64,000 nucleotides of DNA, taken from the NCBI GenBank assembly GCA_019694655.1, contig JAIBBN010000006.1, forward strand, positions 62,001 to 126,000, read 5' to 3'. The notes below the pieces were generated by a model. It was not told the DNA's origin and searched no databases. It saw nothing but the letters and a program-made list of their open reading frames with translations. How positions within the stretch are numbered: the first letter of the stretch is position 1; each line of letters opens with the position of its first letter. This document shows positions 7,421 to 14,062 of the stretch, piece by piece. The stretch comes from Leptospirales bacterium (GTDB lineage: Bacteria; Spirochaetota; Leptospiria; Leptospirales; Leptonemataceae). Made by a program: the position numbers and the translations under genes.

Positions 7421-7565
7421 GCTGCTTTTCTTCAATAATAAGATGGGTTGCCTGGCTAAATGCAGCAAGGGTTCAACACTCATAACTCCGGCCATCCGTA
7501 CCCGGCCTGAACGATATTGGTTTTCTATCCCAGGAAATTGCTTGCCGGCGCGGAGCTTAGATTAA

Positions 7566-7609
7566 TTCTAAATTCAGAACAATTCATTCTGCCCGTCATT
7601 GCATCGGGC
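7566..7609 (+). promoter_or_regulatory. Operator-like palindrome and hairpin upstream of rubrerythrin
   Basis: TTCTAAATTCAGAA (7566-7579) is a near-palindrome with AATT at its centre, an AT-rich island in a GC-rich genome. It is followed by a GCCCG/CGGGC hairpin (7591-7609) that ends directly before the AAGGAGAAGG ribosome binding site. The location suits peroxide- or iron-responsive control (PerR/Fur-type), but the sequence does not match a PerR box well. Confidence 0.35.
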
Positions 7610-7621
7610 AAGGAGAAGGAA

Positions 7622-8038
7622 ATGGCATCCCTGAAAGGTACCAAAACGCACGACAATCTGAAGCAGGCCTTTGCCGGCGAATCGCAGGCAAACCGCCGCT
7701 ATCTGTATTTTGCAAAACAAGCCGATATCGAAGGTCTTCCGGAAATCGCCGGATTGTTCCGCGATACAGCCGAAGGAGAAACCGGACACGCACACGGTCA
7801 TCTTGAATACCTCAAGCAAGTAGGCGATCCGGCGACCGATTTGCCAATTGGCGACACGGCTCAGAATCTCAAGGCGGCCATTGCCGGCGAGACCCACGAG
7901 TATACCGACATGTATCCCGGAATGGCAAAAACCGCCCGCGACGAGGGCTTCAAGGAAATTGCCGACTGGTTTGAAGTGCTTGCCAAGGCTGAAAAGTCGC
8001 ACGCCGGCAAGTTCGACGCAGGCCTTAAGTCGCTGTAA
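7622..8038 (+). CDS. Rubrerythrin-type diiron protein without rubredoxin domain
   Basis: A 138-residue ferritin-like four-helix protein. It carries two diiron-ligand pairs: AGESQANRRYLYF and AEGETGHAHGHL in the first half and GETHEYTDMYP and AEKSHAGKF in the second. The C-terminal rubredoxin domain of classical rubrerythrin is absent, so it is the short (erythrin/sulerythrin-like) form. The family reduces hydrogen peroxide in the cytoplasm. The ATG at 7622 follows a strong AAGGAGAAGG site. The next two genes are a GlpC-like Fe-S protein and a DUF3501 protein, a combination repeatedly found with short rubrerythrins and thought to supply electrons or assembly functions. Confidence 0.93.
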   Translation: MASLKGTKTHDNLKQAFAGESQANRRYLYFAKQADIEGLPEIAGLFRDTAEGETGHAHGHLEYLKQVGDPATDLPIGDTAQNLKAAIAGETHEYTDMYPGMAKTARDEGFKEIADWFEVLAKAEKSHAGKFDAGLKSL

Positions 8039-8105
8039 TTGAACGAAATCTGGCATCTCGCGCCGGGGATTCAGTCCCCGGCATTTTGCCTCAGGGGAGC
8101 AGCAA

Positions 8106-9473
8106 GTGAGCGCAGTGAGCTACGAAAACGTTTCCGATGCCGTCTACGATCCCAATGAGCCTGGCTACTGGGATTCGAATTCGCTGCAGCGTGAGTTGGT
8201 CCGCAATTTTGACCTCTGCAACGGCTGTCGGATGTGTTTCAAACTCTGTCCCTCGTTTCCAACACTGTTCAGCGCCATGGACGCGACAGACAACGATGCG
8301 CATCAGCTAAGCGAAGCAAAAAAAGAACAGGTCCTCGATGAATGCTTCCAATGCAAGCTCTGCTATGTGATCTGTCCATACACTGCAACCGATAAGCACC
8401 CCTACAACATTGACTATCCGGCGCTGATGGAGCGCTATCGTTTGCAGAAGGCAAAGCGCGATGGCATTGGGCTTCGCGAAAAGGCGCTGCAGAATCCGGA
8501 TTTCCTCGGTCGCGTCAATACTGGAATGATTTCCCGCGTTGCCAATGCGGCAATGAACAGCAATTTCCACCGCAGTATCATGCAGGGCATCCTGGGCATT
8601 CACAAGAGCAAAAAGATGCCGGAGTTTCATCGCACATCCTTCATGCAATGGTTTCGCAAGCGCGCCGCAGCGCGCACCCCTGCCGCCGGGGCCGGGCCGC
8701 GCGTGGCGCTCTTTGCAACCTGCTTTGTAAACTACAATAATCCGCGTGTTGGCAAGGATGCGGTAGAAGTGCTCGAGAAGAGCGGGGTGCGTGTGGAATG
8801 CCCAGAGCAAAATTGCTGCGGGATGCCGGCCCTGGACAGCGGCGATCTGAAATTTGCGCTAAAGAAAATGAAGCGCAATATCGACTCCTTGACCCCTTAC
8901 GTGGAACAGGGCTACAAGATCCTGGCGATCAATCCAACCTGCTCGCTTACACTTAAGAAGAAGTACGCTCAATTTATGCCGCCCGGAGAACTGCAGGAGA
9001 AGGCGCGCGCTCTGGGGGCCGCGACCATGGACCTTCACGAATACTTGTTTGAACTCAAGAAAAGAGAATCCTTCAATCGAGAATTCTTGAGCTTGCCGGG
9101 GAAGGTGGCCTACCACGTCCCCTGTCATTTGCGGGCTCAAAACATCGGCTTTCGTTCCCGGGATCTGATGAAGCTGATTCCCGGCGCCCAAATATCGCCT
9201 GTCACAGAATGTTGCGGACACGATGGAACCTGGGCGATGAAAGAGGAGTTCTTCGAACCCAGCCTGGAGGCCGGTCGCCGGGCATTCGAGGGGCTCAAGG
9301 CGCAGGATGCGGCGGTGGTTGCCACCGATTGCCCTCTGGCCGCCATCCAGCTGGAGCAAGGTATGGAACTCAAGATGCGGCCCCTGCATCCGGTGCAGGT
9401 GCTTGCTCGCGCCTACAAGTCGCCGGAGGAAGGCGGTTGGCCGATGCCAGCGGTCAAAGAGCAGCAGGACTGA
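8106..9473 (+). CDS. GlpC/HdrD-like Fe-S oxidoreductase of the rubrerythrin operon
   Basis: A 455-residue protein with two N-terminal 4Fe-4S motifs (CNGCRMCFKLCP near residue 38 and CFQCKLCYVICP near residue 80) and two C-terminal cysteine-rich CCG domains (EQNCCGMPALDSGD and TECCGHDGTWAM). This is the arrangement of GlpC and heterodisulfide reductase subunit D. No membrane anchor is present, so it is probably a soluble electron-transfer or disulfide-handling protein. The start is a GTG at 8106, preceded by AGGGGAGCA. It lies 67 bases after rubrerythrin and 23 before the DUF3501 gene, and probably passes electrons to the rubrerythrin. Confidence 0.9.
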   Translation: MSAVSYENVSDAVYDPNEPGYWDSNSLQRELVRNFDLCNGCRMCFKLCPSFPTLFSAMDATDNDAHQLSEAKKEQVLDECFQCKLCYVICPYTATDKHPYNIDYPALMERYRLQKAKRDGIGLREKALQNPDFLGRVNTGMISRVANAAMNSNFHRSIMQGILGIHKSKKMPEFHRTSFMQWFRKRAAARTPAAGAGPRVALFATCFVNYNNPRVGKDAVEVLEKSGVRVECPEQNCCGMPALDSGDLKFALKKMKRNIDSLTPYVEQGYKILAINPTCSLTLKKKYAQFMPPGELQEKARALGAATMDLHEYLFELKKRESFNREFLSLPGKVAYHVPCHLRAQNIGFRSRDLMKLIPGAQISPVTECCGHDGTWAMKEEFFEPSLEAGRRAFEGLKAQDAAVVATDCPLAAIQLEQGMELKMRPLHPVQVLARAYKSPEEGGWPMPAVKEQQD

Positions 9474-9496
9474 ATCGAGAAGCTGGAAGCGCCAAT

Positions 9497-10090
9497 ATGT
9501 CGGCTATAGAAGTTAGTGATCTGATTCCAAATAGCGAGTACCTGAAAGTCCGGGCCGAGTACCGTCAGCGTGTGCAGGCTATCAAGGACGCCCGGCGGGT
9601 TCTGGCAGGGCCTTATCTCAACTTTCTATTCGAAAACAAGGCTACCATGCTTTACCAGGTTCAGGAAATGATCCGCGCTGAAAATATGCAATCAGCAACG
9701 GCGATCCAGCATGAAATCGATACCTACAATGAATTGGTGCCGGGGCCCAATCAGCTCAAGGCGACGCTGTTGATCGAAATTGAAAATCCGCAGGCGCGCG
9801 CCTTCAAGTTGAAAGAACTTGTCGGGCTGGAAGGTCAGATCAGCATGCTGATTGACCGCGATTTTCAGATCCAGGCCGAATACGATCGGCGCCAGGTGGA
9901 CGAGGGCAAAATCAGTTCGGTTCAGTTTTTAACCTTCAATCTGGGCGCTGCAGCGGCCGAGGCATTGATGAGTTCCGGGGCGGTTGAGATTTTGACCACA
10001 CACCCGGCCTGCAGCTATCGAATTGGCCTTTCGGCGCCGCAGGTCGCTGCTCTCAGCGACGACTTGAAGGAGAACGCGCATCCGGCTTGA
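9497..10090 (+). CDS. DUF3501 family protein
   Basis: A 197-residue cytoplasmic protein matching DUF3501 as I know it: an N-terminal LIPNSEYLKVRAEYRQRV segment, GPYLNFLFENKATMLYQVQE, an IQHEIDTYNELVPGPNQLKA block and a C-terminal SVQFLTFNL segment. DUF3501 genes typically follow rubrerythrin and GlpC-like genes, as here; the biochemical role is not established. The ATG at 9497 is favoured because homology begins a few residues later. The TGA stop overlaps a TTG that could be an alternative start for the downstream protease. Confidence 0.9.
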   Translation: MSAIEVSDLIPNSEYLKVRAEYRQRVQAIKDARRVLAGPYLNFLFENKATMLYQVQEMIRAENMQSATAIQHEIDTYNELVPGPNQLKATLLIEIENPQARAFKLKELVGLEGQISMLIDRDFQIQAEYDRRQVDEGKISSVQFLTFNLGAAAAEALMSSGAVEILTTHPACSYRIGLSAPQVAALSDDLKENAHPA

Positions 10091-10116: not shown

Positions 10117-11682
10117 ATGGACGGCAGCAGGCCGGGGGCTGCTGCTGTCGCGATGATTTGGAGATCGTTGCGGGTTCCGGCGTTCATCTTGTTATCGCTG
10201 CTGATTGCGCCTCGAGTGCAGGCGCTCCGGGCCGAAAGCGGAGACGACACTCGATCCTTGCAGCGCGCCATCGTAAAAGTCAGCCTCAGCTACTTTACCT
10301 ACAACTATGAGAATCCGTGGAATCCTCCGCAAGTCGGCGAGGCGAGCGGAACTGGATTCATCATTTCCGGCAATCGCATCCTGACCAACGCCCATGTTGT
10401 CAGCGGCGCCAACCAGATTATGGTTCAGCGACCGGACCAGCGGCGCGACTTTCCGGCGCGCGTCGCTTTCATTGCGCATGATTGTGACCTGGCCGCGCTG
10501 AGCGTGGACGATCCGGCCTTTTTTGAAGGCGCAGCGACTCTCGAGCTCGGAGGCATACCGGAGCTGAACAGCAGCGTTGCAGTCATGGGCTTTCCGATTG
10601 GCGGAGATCGAATCTCCGTAACGCGCGGCATTGTTTCGCGGCGGGATATGGATCGCTACAGTCATAGCGGCATCGATTTTCATATGATCCTGCAGGTCGA
10701 TGCAGCGATCAATCCTGGCAACTCCGGGGGGCCTGCCTTACAAGATGGGCGGGTGATTGGCGTAGCATTTCAGGCGCTGAGTCGCGGCGAGAATCTCGGC
10801 TATCTGATACCGACGCCAGTCATTGGCAAATTTTTGCGCGATATTGAAGACGGCCGTTATGACGGCTATGTGGAATTTGGCGTATCCGATTTCCCCACCG
10901 AGAATCCGACGCTGCGCAGGGCGATAGGCGTGGAACGTCACGCCAGCGCCCCGGACACTGGCGTTCTGGTCCAGGCAATCATGCCGGGGTCAAGCGCTGA
11001 TGGCATTCTAAAGCCGGGTGATGTGATCCTCTCTGTGAATGGCAAGCCGCTGACGCAAAGCGGCGATGTGGATATGGGCGGCGGCGATCTTGCACCCTAT
11101 GGCGAGCTTCTGGACAACCTGGAGCCTGGCGATCCAATTCAGGTTGAGATTTTGCGCGACGGACGACGGCAAAGCCTGCAGCTGCCTGCGCGTCGCACGC
11201 CGGTCATCAACTTCATGCGCAAAAAATACGACCTTCCGCCCGAGTATCTTATCGCCGGCGGACTGGTTTTTCAACCGCTTGATGAGGACTTGATGGATGC
11301 CTACGGTCAGCAGTGGTCGCGAGAGGGCCGGGTGGAGATTCTTTACCGCTTCGGCCACTTCTTGCCGGCGCAGCTCTACCGTGAACGCGACGTGGATGTG
11401 GTGTTGACGCGGCGATTGAATGACCCGGTCAATCTCTATTCTGAAGCATACGTTGGCGGCATAGTAGAGTCGGTAAATGGCAAGTCGTTTAGAAACTTCA
11501 AGGAGTTTGCAGCATTGATCGACGAAGCCGCTCGCGCCCAGGCAATCATTGTAGTCCGTTTCATTGGGCAGACAACTCCATTGGCGCTGCGCCCGGCGGA
11601 TCTGCGATCCAGTGCGCCGCGCGTCCGCGCGCGCTACGGAATACGCACGGACCGACGTCTCCATGAAGGAGCAGCTCAATGA
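10117..11682 (+). CDS. Deg-type exported serine protease with PDZ domain
   Basis: A 521-residue trypsin-like protease with an export signal (hydrophobic run PAFILLSLLIAP after a 17-residue N-region). The full catalytic triad is visible: His93 in TNAHVV, Asp124 in HDCDLA and Ser203 in NPGNSGGPAL. A PDZ domain (about 265-365; GVLVQAIMPGSSADGILKPGD) follows, then a second PDZ-like domain typical of the plant Deg9 type. It should act in the periplasm on unfolded or envelope proteins. The start is uncertain: the TTG at 10087, ATG at 10117 and ATG at 10153 are all in frame; a GGAGG lies at 10092-10096, and the signal peptide would be most canonical from 10153. It overlaps the next gene by ATGA. Confidence 0.88.
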   Translation: MDGSRPGAAAVAMIWRSLRVPAFILLSLLIAPRVQALRAESGDDTRSLQRAIVKVSLSYFTYNYENPWNPPQVGEASGTGFIISGNRILTNAHVVSGANQIMVQRPDQRRDFPARVAFIAHDCDLAALSVDDPAFFEGAATLELGGIPELNSSVAVMGFPIGGDRISVTRGIVSRRDMDRYSHSGIDFHMILQVDAAINPGNSGGPALQDGRVIGVAFQALSRGENLGYLIPTPVIGKFLRDIEDGRYDGYVEFGVSDFPTENPTLRRAIGVERHASAPDTGVLVQAIMPGSSADGILKPGDVILSVNGKPLTQSGDVDMGGGDLAPYGELLDNLEPGDPIQVEILRDGRRQSLQLPARRTPVINFMRKKYDLPPEYLIAGGLVFQPLDEDLMDAYGQQWSREGRVEILYRFGHFLPAQLYRERDVDVVLTRRLNDPVNLYSEAYVGGIVESVNGKSFRNFKEFAALIDEAARAQAIIVVRFIGQTTPLALRPADLRSSAPRVRARYGIRTDRRLHEGAAQ

Positions 11683-13196
11683 GATCGGCGCTGCGTTCGC
11701 TTCTTTTCCTGGCGGCTGCTTTTCTTGGCCTTCTGCGTTCGCCGATCGCCGAAACGCAGCGGCCGCTGGATGATGCCCGGATTCAGCACGGTCTCGTATT
11801 GCTTCGTATTACGCCGGCCTACTACAATCAGGCCGCGCCATGGATTCGCGAAGCGGCCGACAGCTATTCCGCCCTGGGTCTGGTTGCGTCGGGAGAGCGA
11901 ATTCTGGCGCTTGCCGATCAGTTGCAGGATGCCTCGTTGATTGAACTGCAACAGGTCGGTTCTTACCGGCGCAGCCTGGCGCACATCGAGCTGTCCGATT
12001 CCGAGGCCAATCTGGCTATTTTGCGCGCCGAAGATCCGCAATTCTTTCAGGGCTTGAGACCGCTGCCGCTGGGCGATGGCATGCGTCCAGGTCTGGACCT
12101 GACCGCGGTGAAGATTGATACCATGTTTCGCGTCTACCGCGAGAACAACCGTGTCAAGGAGCTCAATGCACAGACGCAGAGCGGCGTAACCGTCCTGCCG
12201 ATGGCCGCCTTCCGAACTACGGATCCTTTCTTTTCGGGGATTACAATCTGTGGCCCAACAGTTTGCGGATTGATTCGTAGCGCTGACCGCGAACGTCGAA
12301 CGGAAGCAATCCCGGGACCGGTGATTCAAGCCTTTCTGGAGCGGAGTCGGGAACTGCGAAGCTACGCCGGTTTTGCCTCTCAGGGATTTGTACTTTCCGA
12401 GCTGACCGATCCGGCGCTGCGCGAACTGCTCAAGGCTGGCGCCTCCGGCGGCGCGCTGGTAGCGCGAGTTGTTCCGGGGAGTTCGGCGGCGGGGCAGATG
12501 CTGCCCGGCGATGTCGTTTTGAGCATCGATGGCAAGCGGATCGATGAGCTGGGTTACTACGAGCAGGCCGGGCTTGGCCGACAACTGGCGCCGCTGGCGC
12601 TGGCGCTGGATGGCCGCGGCGCACTGCGCAAGCCGGGCGATTCGGTTGCCCTGGTAATCTTGCGCAATGGCGAGCGCAGAACGCTTCGTCTTCAATTGCG
12701 ACGTTATACCGGCGAGGGCGAGCGGATCCGTTCGCGAAGCGAAGATGCGCCTTCCTATCTTATTGAAAATGGCCTGGTCTTTGTGGAATTTACTGTCAGC
12801 GCAGCGCATTCTATCTTTGGCGCTGAATGGCCGACTCGCGCGGCTGAACTTGGCTTTCTGTACCGTACGCGTCGTTTCTATGAATCGGGCGCCGCGGCGG
12901 ATCGTATCATTCTGGTTTCGGCCGTCTTGCCGGATGAGGCCAGCCGCAGCTATGATCGCCTGGCCGGCGCCATTCTGCGTTCAGTCAACGGTCAGCCGGC
13001 GGCCGATCTTCGTCAGCTTAAGAAGAAATTAGACGAAATGGAGGCGGCCGGGACAGATACCGCCGTTGCTGAATTCAGCGGGGAGCGGATCATCTATCTG
13101 GACCTGAAGAATCGGCGAACGATTGGCCAGCGCATTCTTGCGCGCTATTCCATTCCCGCGGCGGACAATCTATCTGAATCAGCTCAGCGCAGATAG
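11679..13196 (+). CDS. Catalytically dead Deg-like paralogue with PDZ domain
   Basis: A 505-residue exported protein (signal MRSALRSLLFLAAAFLGLLRS) coupled to the preceding protease by an ATGA overlap. It aligns by eye with its neighbour: GLVASGERILALADQL matches GFIISGNRILTNAHVV, and ANLAILRAEDPQFF matches CDLAALSVDDPAFF. The catalytic His is therefore replaced by Asp, the catalytic Asp by Asn, and no GNSGG remains (the region reads SGITICGPTVCGL). The PDZ part is kept (GALVARVVPGSSAAGQMLPGD), as is the C-terminal PDZ-like domain. It is probably a pseudoprotease that regulates or presents substrate to the active enzyme. Its end overlaps the convergent beta-barrel gene by 13 bases. Confidence 0.82.
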   Translation: MRSALRSLLFLAAAFLGLLRSPIAETQRPLDDARIQHGLVLLRITPAYYNQAAPWIREAADSYSALGLVASGERILALADQLQDASLIELQQVGSYRRSLAHIELSDSEANLAILRAEDPQFFQGLRPLPLGDGMRPGLDLTAVKIDTMFRVYRENNRVKELNAQTQSGVTVLPMAAFRTTDPFFSGITICGPTVCGLIRSADRERRTEAIPGPVIQAFLERSRELRSYAGFASQGFVLSELTDPALRELLKAGASGGALVARVVPGSSAAGQMLPGDVVLSIDGKRIDELGYYEQAGLGRQLAPLALALDGRGALRKPGDSVALVILRNGERRTLRLQLRRYTGEGERIRSRSEDAPSYLIENGLVFVEFTVSAAHSIFGAEWPTRAAELGFLYRTRRFYESGAAADRIILVSAVLPDEASRSYDRLAGAILRSVNGQPAADLRQLKKKLDEMEAAGTDTAVAEFSGERIIYLDLKNRRTIGQRILARYSIPAADNLSESAQRR

Positions 13197-14062
13197 TAGC
13201 GCATTCCAAAATTGGCGCGCAATTCTTCGCGGATGCTTTGTTCGTCTGGCTGCAGCTGCTGCACGGGGACTTCAACCATTGCCTGGAGGCTGAGCGTGCG
13301 CGTCGCAATCTGAAGGCCCGGCGCTACAAATACGGTGCCGTATTCCGTTCCAGCAACGCGAGCATTGTCCTTTCGGTCGGCAAAGTTGTAGCGCGCATTC
13401 ACGCCAAGCAAGACGGTTAGCTGATAGTCGCGAGCCTCAGGCGAATAGTCGCCGAAACCATAGCCAAAGGCAAGGCTGGCCAGCGAGGTTTCGCCTGGAT
13501 CGTAGCCATCGCGCTCGGTCCGGAGATTGTGAGCCAGCCCCATGCGGACGTTAGCGCGTTCTCGCTGGTAGCGGACCGCTAATTCATTGTCCAGTCGGTA
13601 GCGTTCGTTGGCCAGCCAGGCGTATTCCGGCCCATTGAGTTGGCCGTTTTCATTGGCGATGTTGGCAAAGGTTCGATTGTTCCATTCAATCTGCCATCGG
13701 CCTTCATGAAACAACTGGTATCCAAGCAGCAAACCAGCGTAGTGCGGTCCTTCAGCGTTGCTGCTGCCTGCTGCTGACCGGTACTCCTGCACCGCATATT
13801 CGAAGGCGCCGCCCATATAGAGCCGGCCAAGGGAGACTTCCAGGGGCAGGATCACCGGAATGGAGTAGCTGCGCACCTCGCCGCCGGCGGCATCATTCAG
13901 GGCGCTGTAATTGAGCCCGCCGCCAAGCAGGCCGCCCACGCCCCAGGAACGGGTCGGCGAGGGGGCGGCCCAATCCTGGCTCAAACCGGGGGCCTGGGCC
14001 AGCAGCGAAGACGCGGCCAGGCCCGTCGCAACCAACAGGGCTTTCCAGTAGCTTTGCTTCAT
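13184..14062 (-). CDS. Predicted outer-membrane beta-barrel protein
   Basis: A 292-residue protein with a Sec signal peptide (KALLVATGLAASSLLAQA). The mature part is made of alternating polar/hydrophobic strands with many Gly, Tyr and Asn residues and short turns, ending FGMRYYLR; this is the look of an outer-membrane barrel of roughly ten to twelve strands. No named family is recognised. It is divergent from the channel gene across a 230-bp region and convergent with the pseudoprotease gene. A role as a porin-like or structural envelope protein is inference. Confidence 0.72.
   Translation of the reverse strand: MKQSYWKALLVATGLAASSLLAQAPGLSQDWAAPSPTRSWGVGGLLGGGLNYSALNDAAGGEVRSYSIPVILPLEVSLGRLYMGGAFEYAVQEYRSAAGSSNAEGPHYAGLLLGYQLFHEGRWQIEWNNRTFANIANENGQLNGPEYAWLANERYRLDNELAVRYQRERANVRMGLAHNLRTERDGYDPGETSLASLAFGYGFGDYSPEARDYQLTVLLGVNARYNFADRKDNARVAGTEYGTVFVAPGLQIATRTLSLQAMVEVPVQQLQPDEQSIREELRANFGMRYYLR

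Follow-up and report, generated by a model that had tools for sequence, protein, structure and literature searches.

The window analysed here is the whole 64,000-nucleotide stretch of the Leptospirales contig, and it holds two overlapping genes, which we call A and B and whose features are collected in Table 1. The coordinates of both genes and their ATGA overlap proved to be as given in the original prediction, with a possible alternative start of A at a TTG at 10087.

Table 1. Coordinates of genes A and B and of their features in the window.
Feature	Position	Strand	Remark
Gene A, Deg2/Deg9-type serine protease, predicted active, 521 residues (Trypsin_2, PDZ, PDZ_3)	10117..11682	+	ATG start
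Codon of A catalytic H93	10393..10395	+	
Codon of A catalytic D124	10486..10488	+	
Codon of A catalytic S203 (GNSGG)	10723..10725	+	
A PDZ_3 domain, residues 369-513	11221..11655	+	Pfam match
AAGGAG within the 3' end of A, likely ribosome-binding site of B	11666..11671	+	7 bases before the B ATG
ATGA, A stop overlapping B start	11679..11682	+	
Gene B, pseudoprotease paralogue of A	11679..13196	+	
B degenerate protease domain, about residues 32-226	11772..12356	+	Predicted fold; triad columns D80, N111, F185
B PDZ region, about residues 230-343	12366..12707	+	Domain match, model
B PDZ_3 domain, residues 355-495	12741..13163	+	Pfam match

Pfam matches place a Trypsin_2 domain ahead of PDZ and PDZ_3 in A, which is the Deg2/Deg9-type order, and the closest solved structures to A in the PDB are those of plant Deg9, Deg2 and a chimera of both (E 8e-71 to 3e-74). 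With this domain order and the His-Asp-Ser triad both present, A is a Deg/HtrA protease of the Deg2/Deg9 type, predicted from its sequence to be active. B aligns with A end to end, as had been claimed (BLASTP, 29% identity over 526 columns, E 2e-32); a Pfam scan matched PDZ and PDZ_3 in it and found no trypsin-family match. The PDZ region is thus kept in B, and the N-termini of both proteins look like signal peptides when judged by eye, in agreement with the original prediction on both points.

In the window copy, the columns occupied by H93, D124 and S203 in A hold D80, N111 and F185 in B, which bears out the earlier description of B as a paralogue that has lost all three triad residues. No gaps interrupt the alignment at the His and Asp columns, so that these two replacements are unambiguous; the Ser column may be off by one residue, S186 being adjacent, and the GNSGG motif is gone there. 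The same division holds across the collected homologues: the full triad is present in 126 of 127 A copies (the remaining one being a contig-edge fragment) and in all 16 stand-alone relatives. B orthologues with an intact triad, which would have spoken against the original prediction, were looked for among 127 B copies, of which none has the full triad or even two of its residues, and none has all three after allowing 3 residues of slack per site. These 127 sequences form 116 clusters at 90% identity, and so include few near-copies. Asn occupies the Asp site in 107 of them, and a G.SGG pattern occurs in only two, that of the window copy being a GASGG in the PDZ region (near residue 253). No conserved His or Cys column was found among the B sequences, which makes a new catalytic site in B unlikely.

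Loss of the triad is accompanied by retention of the predicted fold. An AlphaFold2 model of B built from 27 B orthologues has a mean pLDDT of 91.5 and a pTM of 0.85, and its top Foldseek matches are Deg9 (E 2e-36), the Deg2/Deg9 chimera and Deg2. In VIA-align comparisons the model superposes on Deg9 with Z 34.4 (rmsd 2.7 over 452 residues), and on DegQ and DegP with Z of about 22. A B protein lacking the chymotrypsin-like fold, the other outcome that would have counted against the original proposal, did not appear, as the match of the model to Deg9 and Deg2 extends along the entire chain. By this prediction B is an entire Deg subunit that lacks an active site; with the Deg fold present in the model and the triad absent from the sequence, it is a non-peptidase homologue rather than a protease.

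We assessed how widely the pair is kept after removing an 86-aa A fragment of one genome (G003), 14 duplicate Leptospirales loci and rows below 100 bits. Genes with PDZ_3 were found in 29 of 30 genomes of the window's order, the exception being a genome of 0.9 Mb, and in all 19 genomes of the order that pass completeness and contamination limits. A adjoins B in 29 Leptospirales loci, and with starts picked by rule the two overlap in 18 of these 29, by 4 nt in 13. The suggestion that related genomes be checked for the pair is answered clearly, in that A comes first and on the same strand in all 122 linked pairs, drawn from Spirochaetota, Verrucomicrobiota and Desulfobacterota-type genomes; this count excludes L118 and L151 (genes on separate contigs), L127 (contig end) and the contig-split pairs of G314 and G160. 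Among the best 80 matches to A in named species genomes (Leptospirales, Verrucomicrobiota and Desulfobacterota-type), a triad-less B-like frame lies directly 3' in 78, of which one, L127, is a fragment truncated where its contig stops, and in the remaining two (L118 and L151) B lies on another contig of the same genome. Matches in this contig scan were ranked by their resemblance to Leptospirales A, which biases it toward paired A proteins; draws by the PDZ_3 family provide a less biased control, and stand-alone relatives do occur in them. A contig scan that used only B as its query returned no relative; the peptide patterns were probably too specific.

In the Verrucomicrobiota draw (the phylum of G061), PDZ_3 matches were present in 38 of 115 genomes, as two matches in 25, a single match in 11, and fragments or weak matches in 2. 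The two matches stand in tandem in 24 of the 25 genomes, the other pair (G160) being split by contig ends, and all 22 pairs whose sequences were read combine an active A with an inactive B; all 11 singles are stand-alone copies with a triad. Matches were rarer in the draw from the Desulfatitalea phylum (that of G064; 6 of 118 genomes), where the three genomes that were sequence-read contain two pairs and one stand-alone copy. The Spirochaetota draw gave matches in 30 of 150 genomes, and outside the window's order the pair is found in 10, with that of G314 on separate contigs and that of G410 broken by contig ends. No PDZ_3 match was found in 14 control genomes. Co-inheritance across at least three bacterial phyla suggests that B is kept as a functional partner and is not a duplicate in decay.

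In three genomes (G069, G070 and G314) A and B lie on different contigs and both are retained; as the overlap is also not universal, translational coupling of the two is not essential and equal synthesis is not required. Only one genome was found with B and no A (G028), and there B lies near a contig end with A out of view. Conversely, the stand-alone active copies without B in 11 of 38 PDZ_3-positive Verrucomicrobiota genomes imply, if their sequences are a guide to activity, that a Deg9-type protease would not need B in every case. Both kinds can coexist, as a stand-alone Deg9-type protease and an A/B pair occur together in two genomes (L214 of G071; L185/L186 of G329). In G003 (L037:4465-6109), A is apparently broken near its 3' end into frames of 463 and 86 aa beside an intact B, possibly through an assembly error.

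To place these proteins relative to one another, 152 of them, from 14 Leptospirales genomes and a chosen subset of others, were put into a quick IQ-TREE analysis with SH-aLRT support only; it includes the products of a second tandem pair, C and D, described below. A branch with SH-aLRT 100 separates all B and D proteins from the A, C and stand-alone proteins; within the latter set the stand-alone proteins form their own group (support 99, with one long-branch row apart) and the paired A proteins together with one C form another (support 83 only). The histories of A and B mirror each other: patristic distances over 63 pairs correlate with r = 0.924, where the best of 1000 permutations reached 0.145, and the two trees have 42 of 60 bipartitions in common, where the best of 200 shuffles gave 2. 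From this split and the mirrored trees, B most likely arose once, before the pair spread, and A and B would since have been inherited or transferred together. One could instead suppose that B works independently, as a chaperone or scaffold, and lies near A only as a relic of tandem duplication, given that tandem duplicates are adjacent from the start, that the stand-alone active relatives suggest A-type proteases can work without B, and that the genes are apart in three genomes. We consider this improbable, as order and linkage have held over several phyla while every other neighbour changes, the mirrored trees and the retention of both genes where they are unlinked tie the two together, and B without A was not found except in G028.

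Overall, B changes at about 1.6 times the rate of A, and this excess is unevenly distributed along the protein. Mean identity in the protease domain is 0.26 among B proteins versus 0.53 among A proteins, compared with 0.31 (B) versus 0.36 (A) in PDZ1 and 0.29 (B) versus 0.31 (A) in PDZ2; as judged from these alignments, the rate excess sits in the protease domain and the PDZ domains are almost equally kept as those of A. Estimates of dN/dS for B are 0.04-0.14 in seven of eight close pairs, the eighth not being computable, and 0.03-0.08 for A; these values indicate purifying selection on B, albeit with dS near saturation. The faster rate and the lost triad are what one would expect of a duplicate in decay, a pseudogene in the making, and the serine beside the Ser column in the window copy might hint at a non-standard catalytic activity. 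Either alternative is very improbable: reading frames are intact in all loci used and dN/dS is low, the B copies of several phyla trace back to a common ancestor that had by then lost the whole triad, and a substitute His or Cys column is missing. Decay, specifically, is refuted by the conservation of B.

B is therefore most likely a conserved non-catalytic partner of A. The reading that we prefer, with a probability of roughly 0.6, is that A and B belong, as its two subunits, to a single Deg/HtrA protease system of the envelope, most likely a mixed oligomer; the contact between them, their location and the direction of regulation are what we infer. A would be the catalytic subunit, and B would derive from an ancient duplication of an A-type Deg protein in which catalysis was lost and the Deg fold and both PDZ domains were kept. 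B may then join A in a mixed oligomer, filling positions of a ring or cage through physical contact, where its PDZ domains could bind substrate or signal peptides and it would thereby set the assembly and activity of A. A single functional unit is favoured by the constant gene order, the retention of both genes when unlinked, the mirrored trees, the intact predicted fold and the conserved PDZ domains.

Co-inheritance of A and B would, however, also be expected if B served the pathway of A without touching it. The main rival accordingly takes B as an adaptor, activator or inhibitor that acts on A through substrates or PDZ ligands and forms no stable mixed oligomer. It draws on the same genetic evidence of a common pathway (linkage and mirrored trees) and on the PDZ domains being the part of B whose conservation matches A, and it has a precedent in the MamE/MamO system, where MamO is needed although no interaction was detected, according to the available part of that report (PMC4794232). 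On our analysis this is the strongest competitor, yet still unlikely, as a mere adaptor would have no need of the full Deg fold, including the protease domain, that B is predicted to keep, and PDZ-only forms number zero among the 127 B proteins.

We also compared the pair with described systems, in each case as far as the accessible text of the source goes. Daroz et al. (2020, PMC7709667) describe two Leptospira operons, LIC20143/LIC20144 and LIC11112/LIC11111, each encoding an active serine protease and a triad-less protein. They note an ATGA overlap for LIC11112/LIC11111, suggest a heterodimer and cite proteome detection; the second proteins are called PDZ-only, and LIC11112/LIC11111 is regarded as a complete HtrA made of two proteins (PMC7709667). 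The triad of LIC20143 (H93, D124, S203; PMC7709667) is at the same positions as that of A in the window, and LIC20143/LIC20144 is a tandem pair beside an adenine phosphoribosyltransferase gene; we recognised an adenine phosphoribosyltransferase neighbour by eye in 4 of the 29 Leptospirales loci. In contrast to what we report, the portion of that paper available mentions neither a degenerate protease domain nor pairs outside Leptospira (PMC7709667).

Active and inactive relatives are also paired elsewhere. MamE and MamO are an active HtrA and an inactive relative in one gene cluster, with MamO required for MamE-dependent proteolysis and no physical interaction detected; inactive MamE copies occur in magnetotactic bacteria too, and the authors infer selection for active/inactive pairing (Hershey et al. 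2016, PMC4794232, as far as the available text goes). As described there, MamO differs from B in having a TauE-like transporter domain and metal binding, whereas B has no TauE-like domain in Pfam, and the MamE/MamO system is confined to magnetosome islands, is not of the PDZ_3 Deg2/Deg9 type and has separate origins. Membership of A/B in it was rejected: the five scanned neighbours are MBOAT, Fe-S/CCG, DUF3501, an ion channel and one unmatched protein, with no magnetosome island among them, and A scores 87 bits with the NCBIfam MamE model against a cut-off of 800. Plant DEG7 likewise joins an active Deg protease domain, a degenerate one and four PDZ domains in one chain, the degenerate domain being said, in the part of the source accessible, to act in trimerisation (PMC3473262); this resembles A/B in composition, but membership was ruled out because DEG7 is a fused single chain and A and B are two reading frames. 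Plant Deg9 (5il9) and Deg2 (4fln), the best solved structures for both A and B, share their domain order, and their structure records describe single active proteases with no inactive gene partner. Within these sources, then, the Leptospira operon and the active/inactive pairing in MamE/MamO and DEG7 are already known, and no description of the cross-phylum pair was found in the open-licence literature. The original prediction's view of the arrangement as unusual therefore stands only in part: active/inactive pairing and the Leptospira heterodimer hypothesis (PMC7709667) are in print, and the spread of one such pair across phyla is what had no prior account that we found.

The genome of the window contains a second tandem pair on the minus strand, C (L005:8818-10290) and D (L005:7317-8828), at about 379.3-382.3 kb of G000:C2. 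The two genes overlap by 11 nt, both encode PDZ_3, and the triad is absent from both. The tree puts C with A and D with B, on long branches whose exact places are unsure, and the second pair of another genome (G024), whose first gene is active by its triad residues, groups with the C and D of G022; on these placements C/D is probably a duplicate of the whole A/B operon. H, D and S are kept in only one of eight C proteins (that of G022). Both second-operon relatives, L072:3014-5775 (G022) and L058 (G024), still have H, D and S in the first gene, the serine motif of the former being GFSGSP, so the window's family probably lost catalysis at a later stage. A model of C, built from nine sequences only, has a mean pLDDT of 83 and matches Deg2 and Deg9 with Z 32. 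The gene at L005:11246-12241 looks GspN-like by eye and has no Pfam match.

HtrA/Deg proteases are usually pictured as self-activating homo-oligomers, and hetero-oligomeric control is known for some FtsH and Clp proteases. Taken further, our results could describe an ancient two-subunit Deg protease, active plus pseudoprotease, present in at least three phyla as a functional unit that survives gene separation, in which the dead subunit would either receive substrate for a mixed cage or act as its allosteric switch, and whose operon was duplicated in Leptospirales, the second operon of the window's family having lost catalysis in both genes to leave an all-pseudoprotease Deg pair. We put the chances of this wider proposal at about even. 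If it is true, an inactive subunit that is widespread and co-inherited would bring hetero-oligomeric control to the bacterial envelope, and the two Leptospira operons, now read as protease plus PDZ-only protein, would have to be reinterpreted. With just two genes, A/B is also a tractable system in which to ask why pseudoproteases persist.

Across 29 Leptospirales and 63 other loci, no gene family was seen to flank the pair in Leptospirales as well as in other phyla, and neighbours were rejected as pathway evidence, recurrent ones being lineage-specific. In the window, Fe-S/CCG protein and DUF3501 genes lie directly upstream of A (region 7517-10090), together with a gene named by eye as rubrerythrin-like (7517-8038), and A starts 26 nt after the DUF3501 stop; the Fe-S gene is upstream in 11 of the 29 Leptospirales loci and in none of the 63 others. 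The most frequent Leptospirales neighbour, present in 18 of 29 loci, is the apparently exported protein encoded on the minus strand at 13184-14062 of the window, convergent with B and with no Pfam match.
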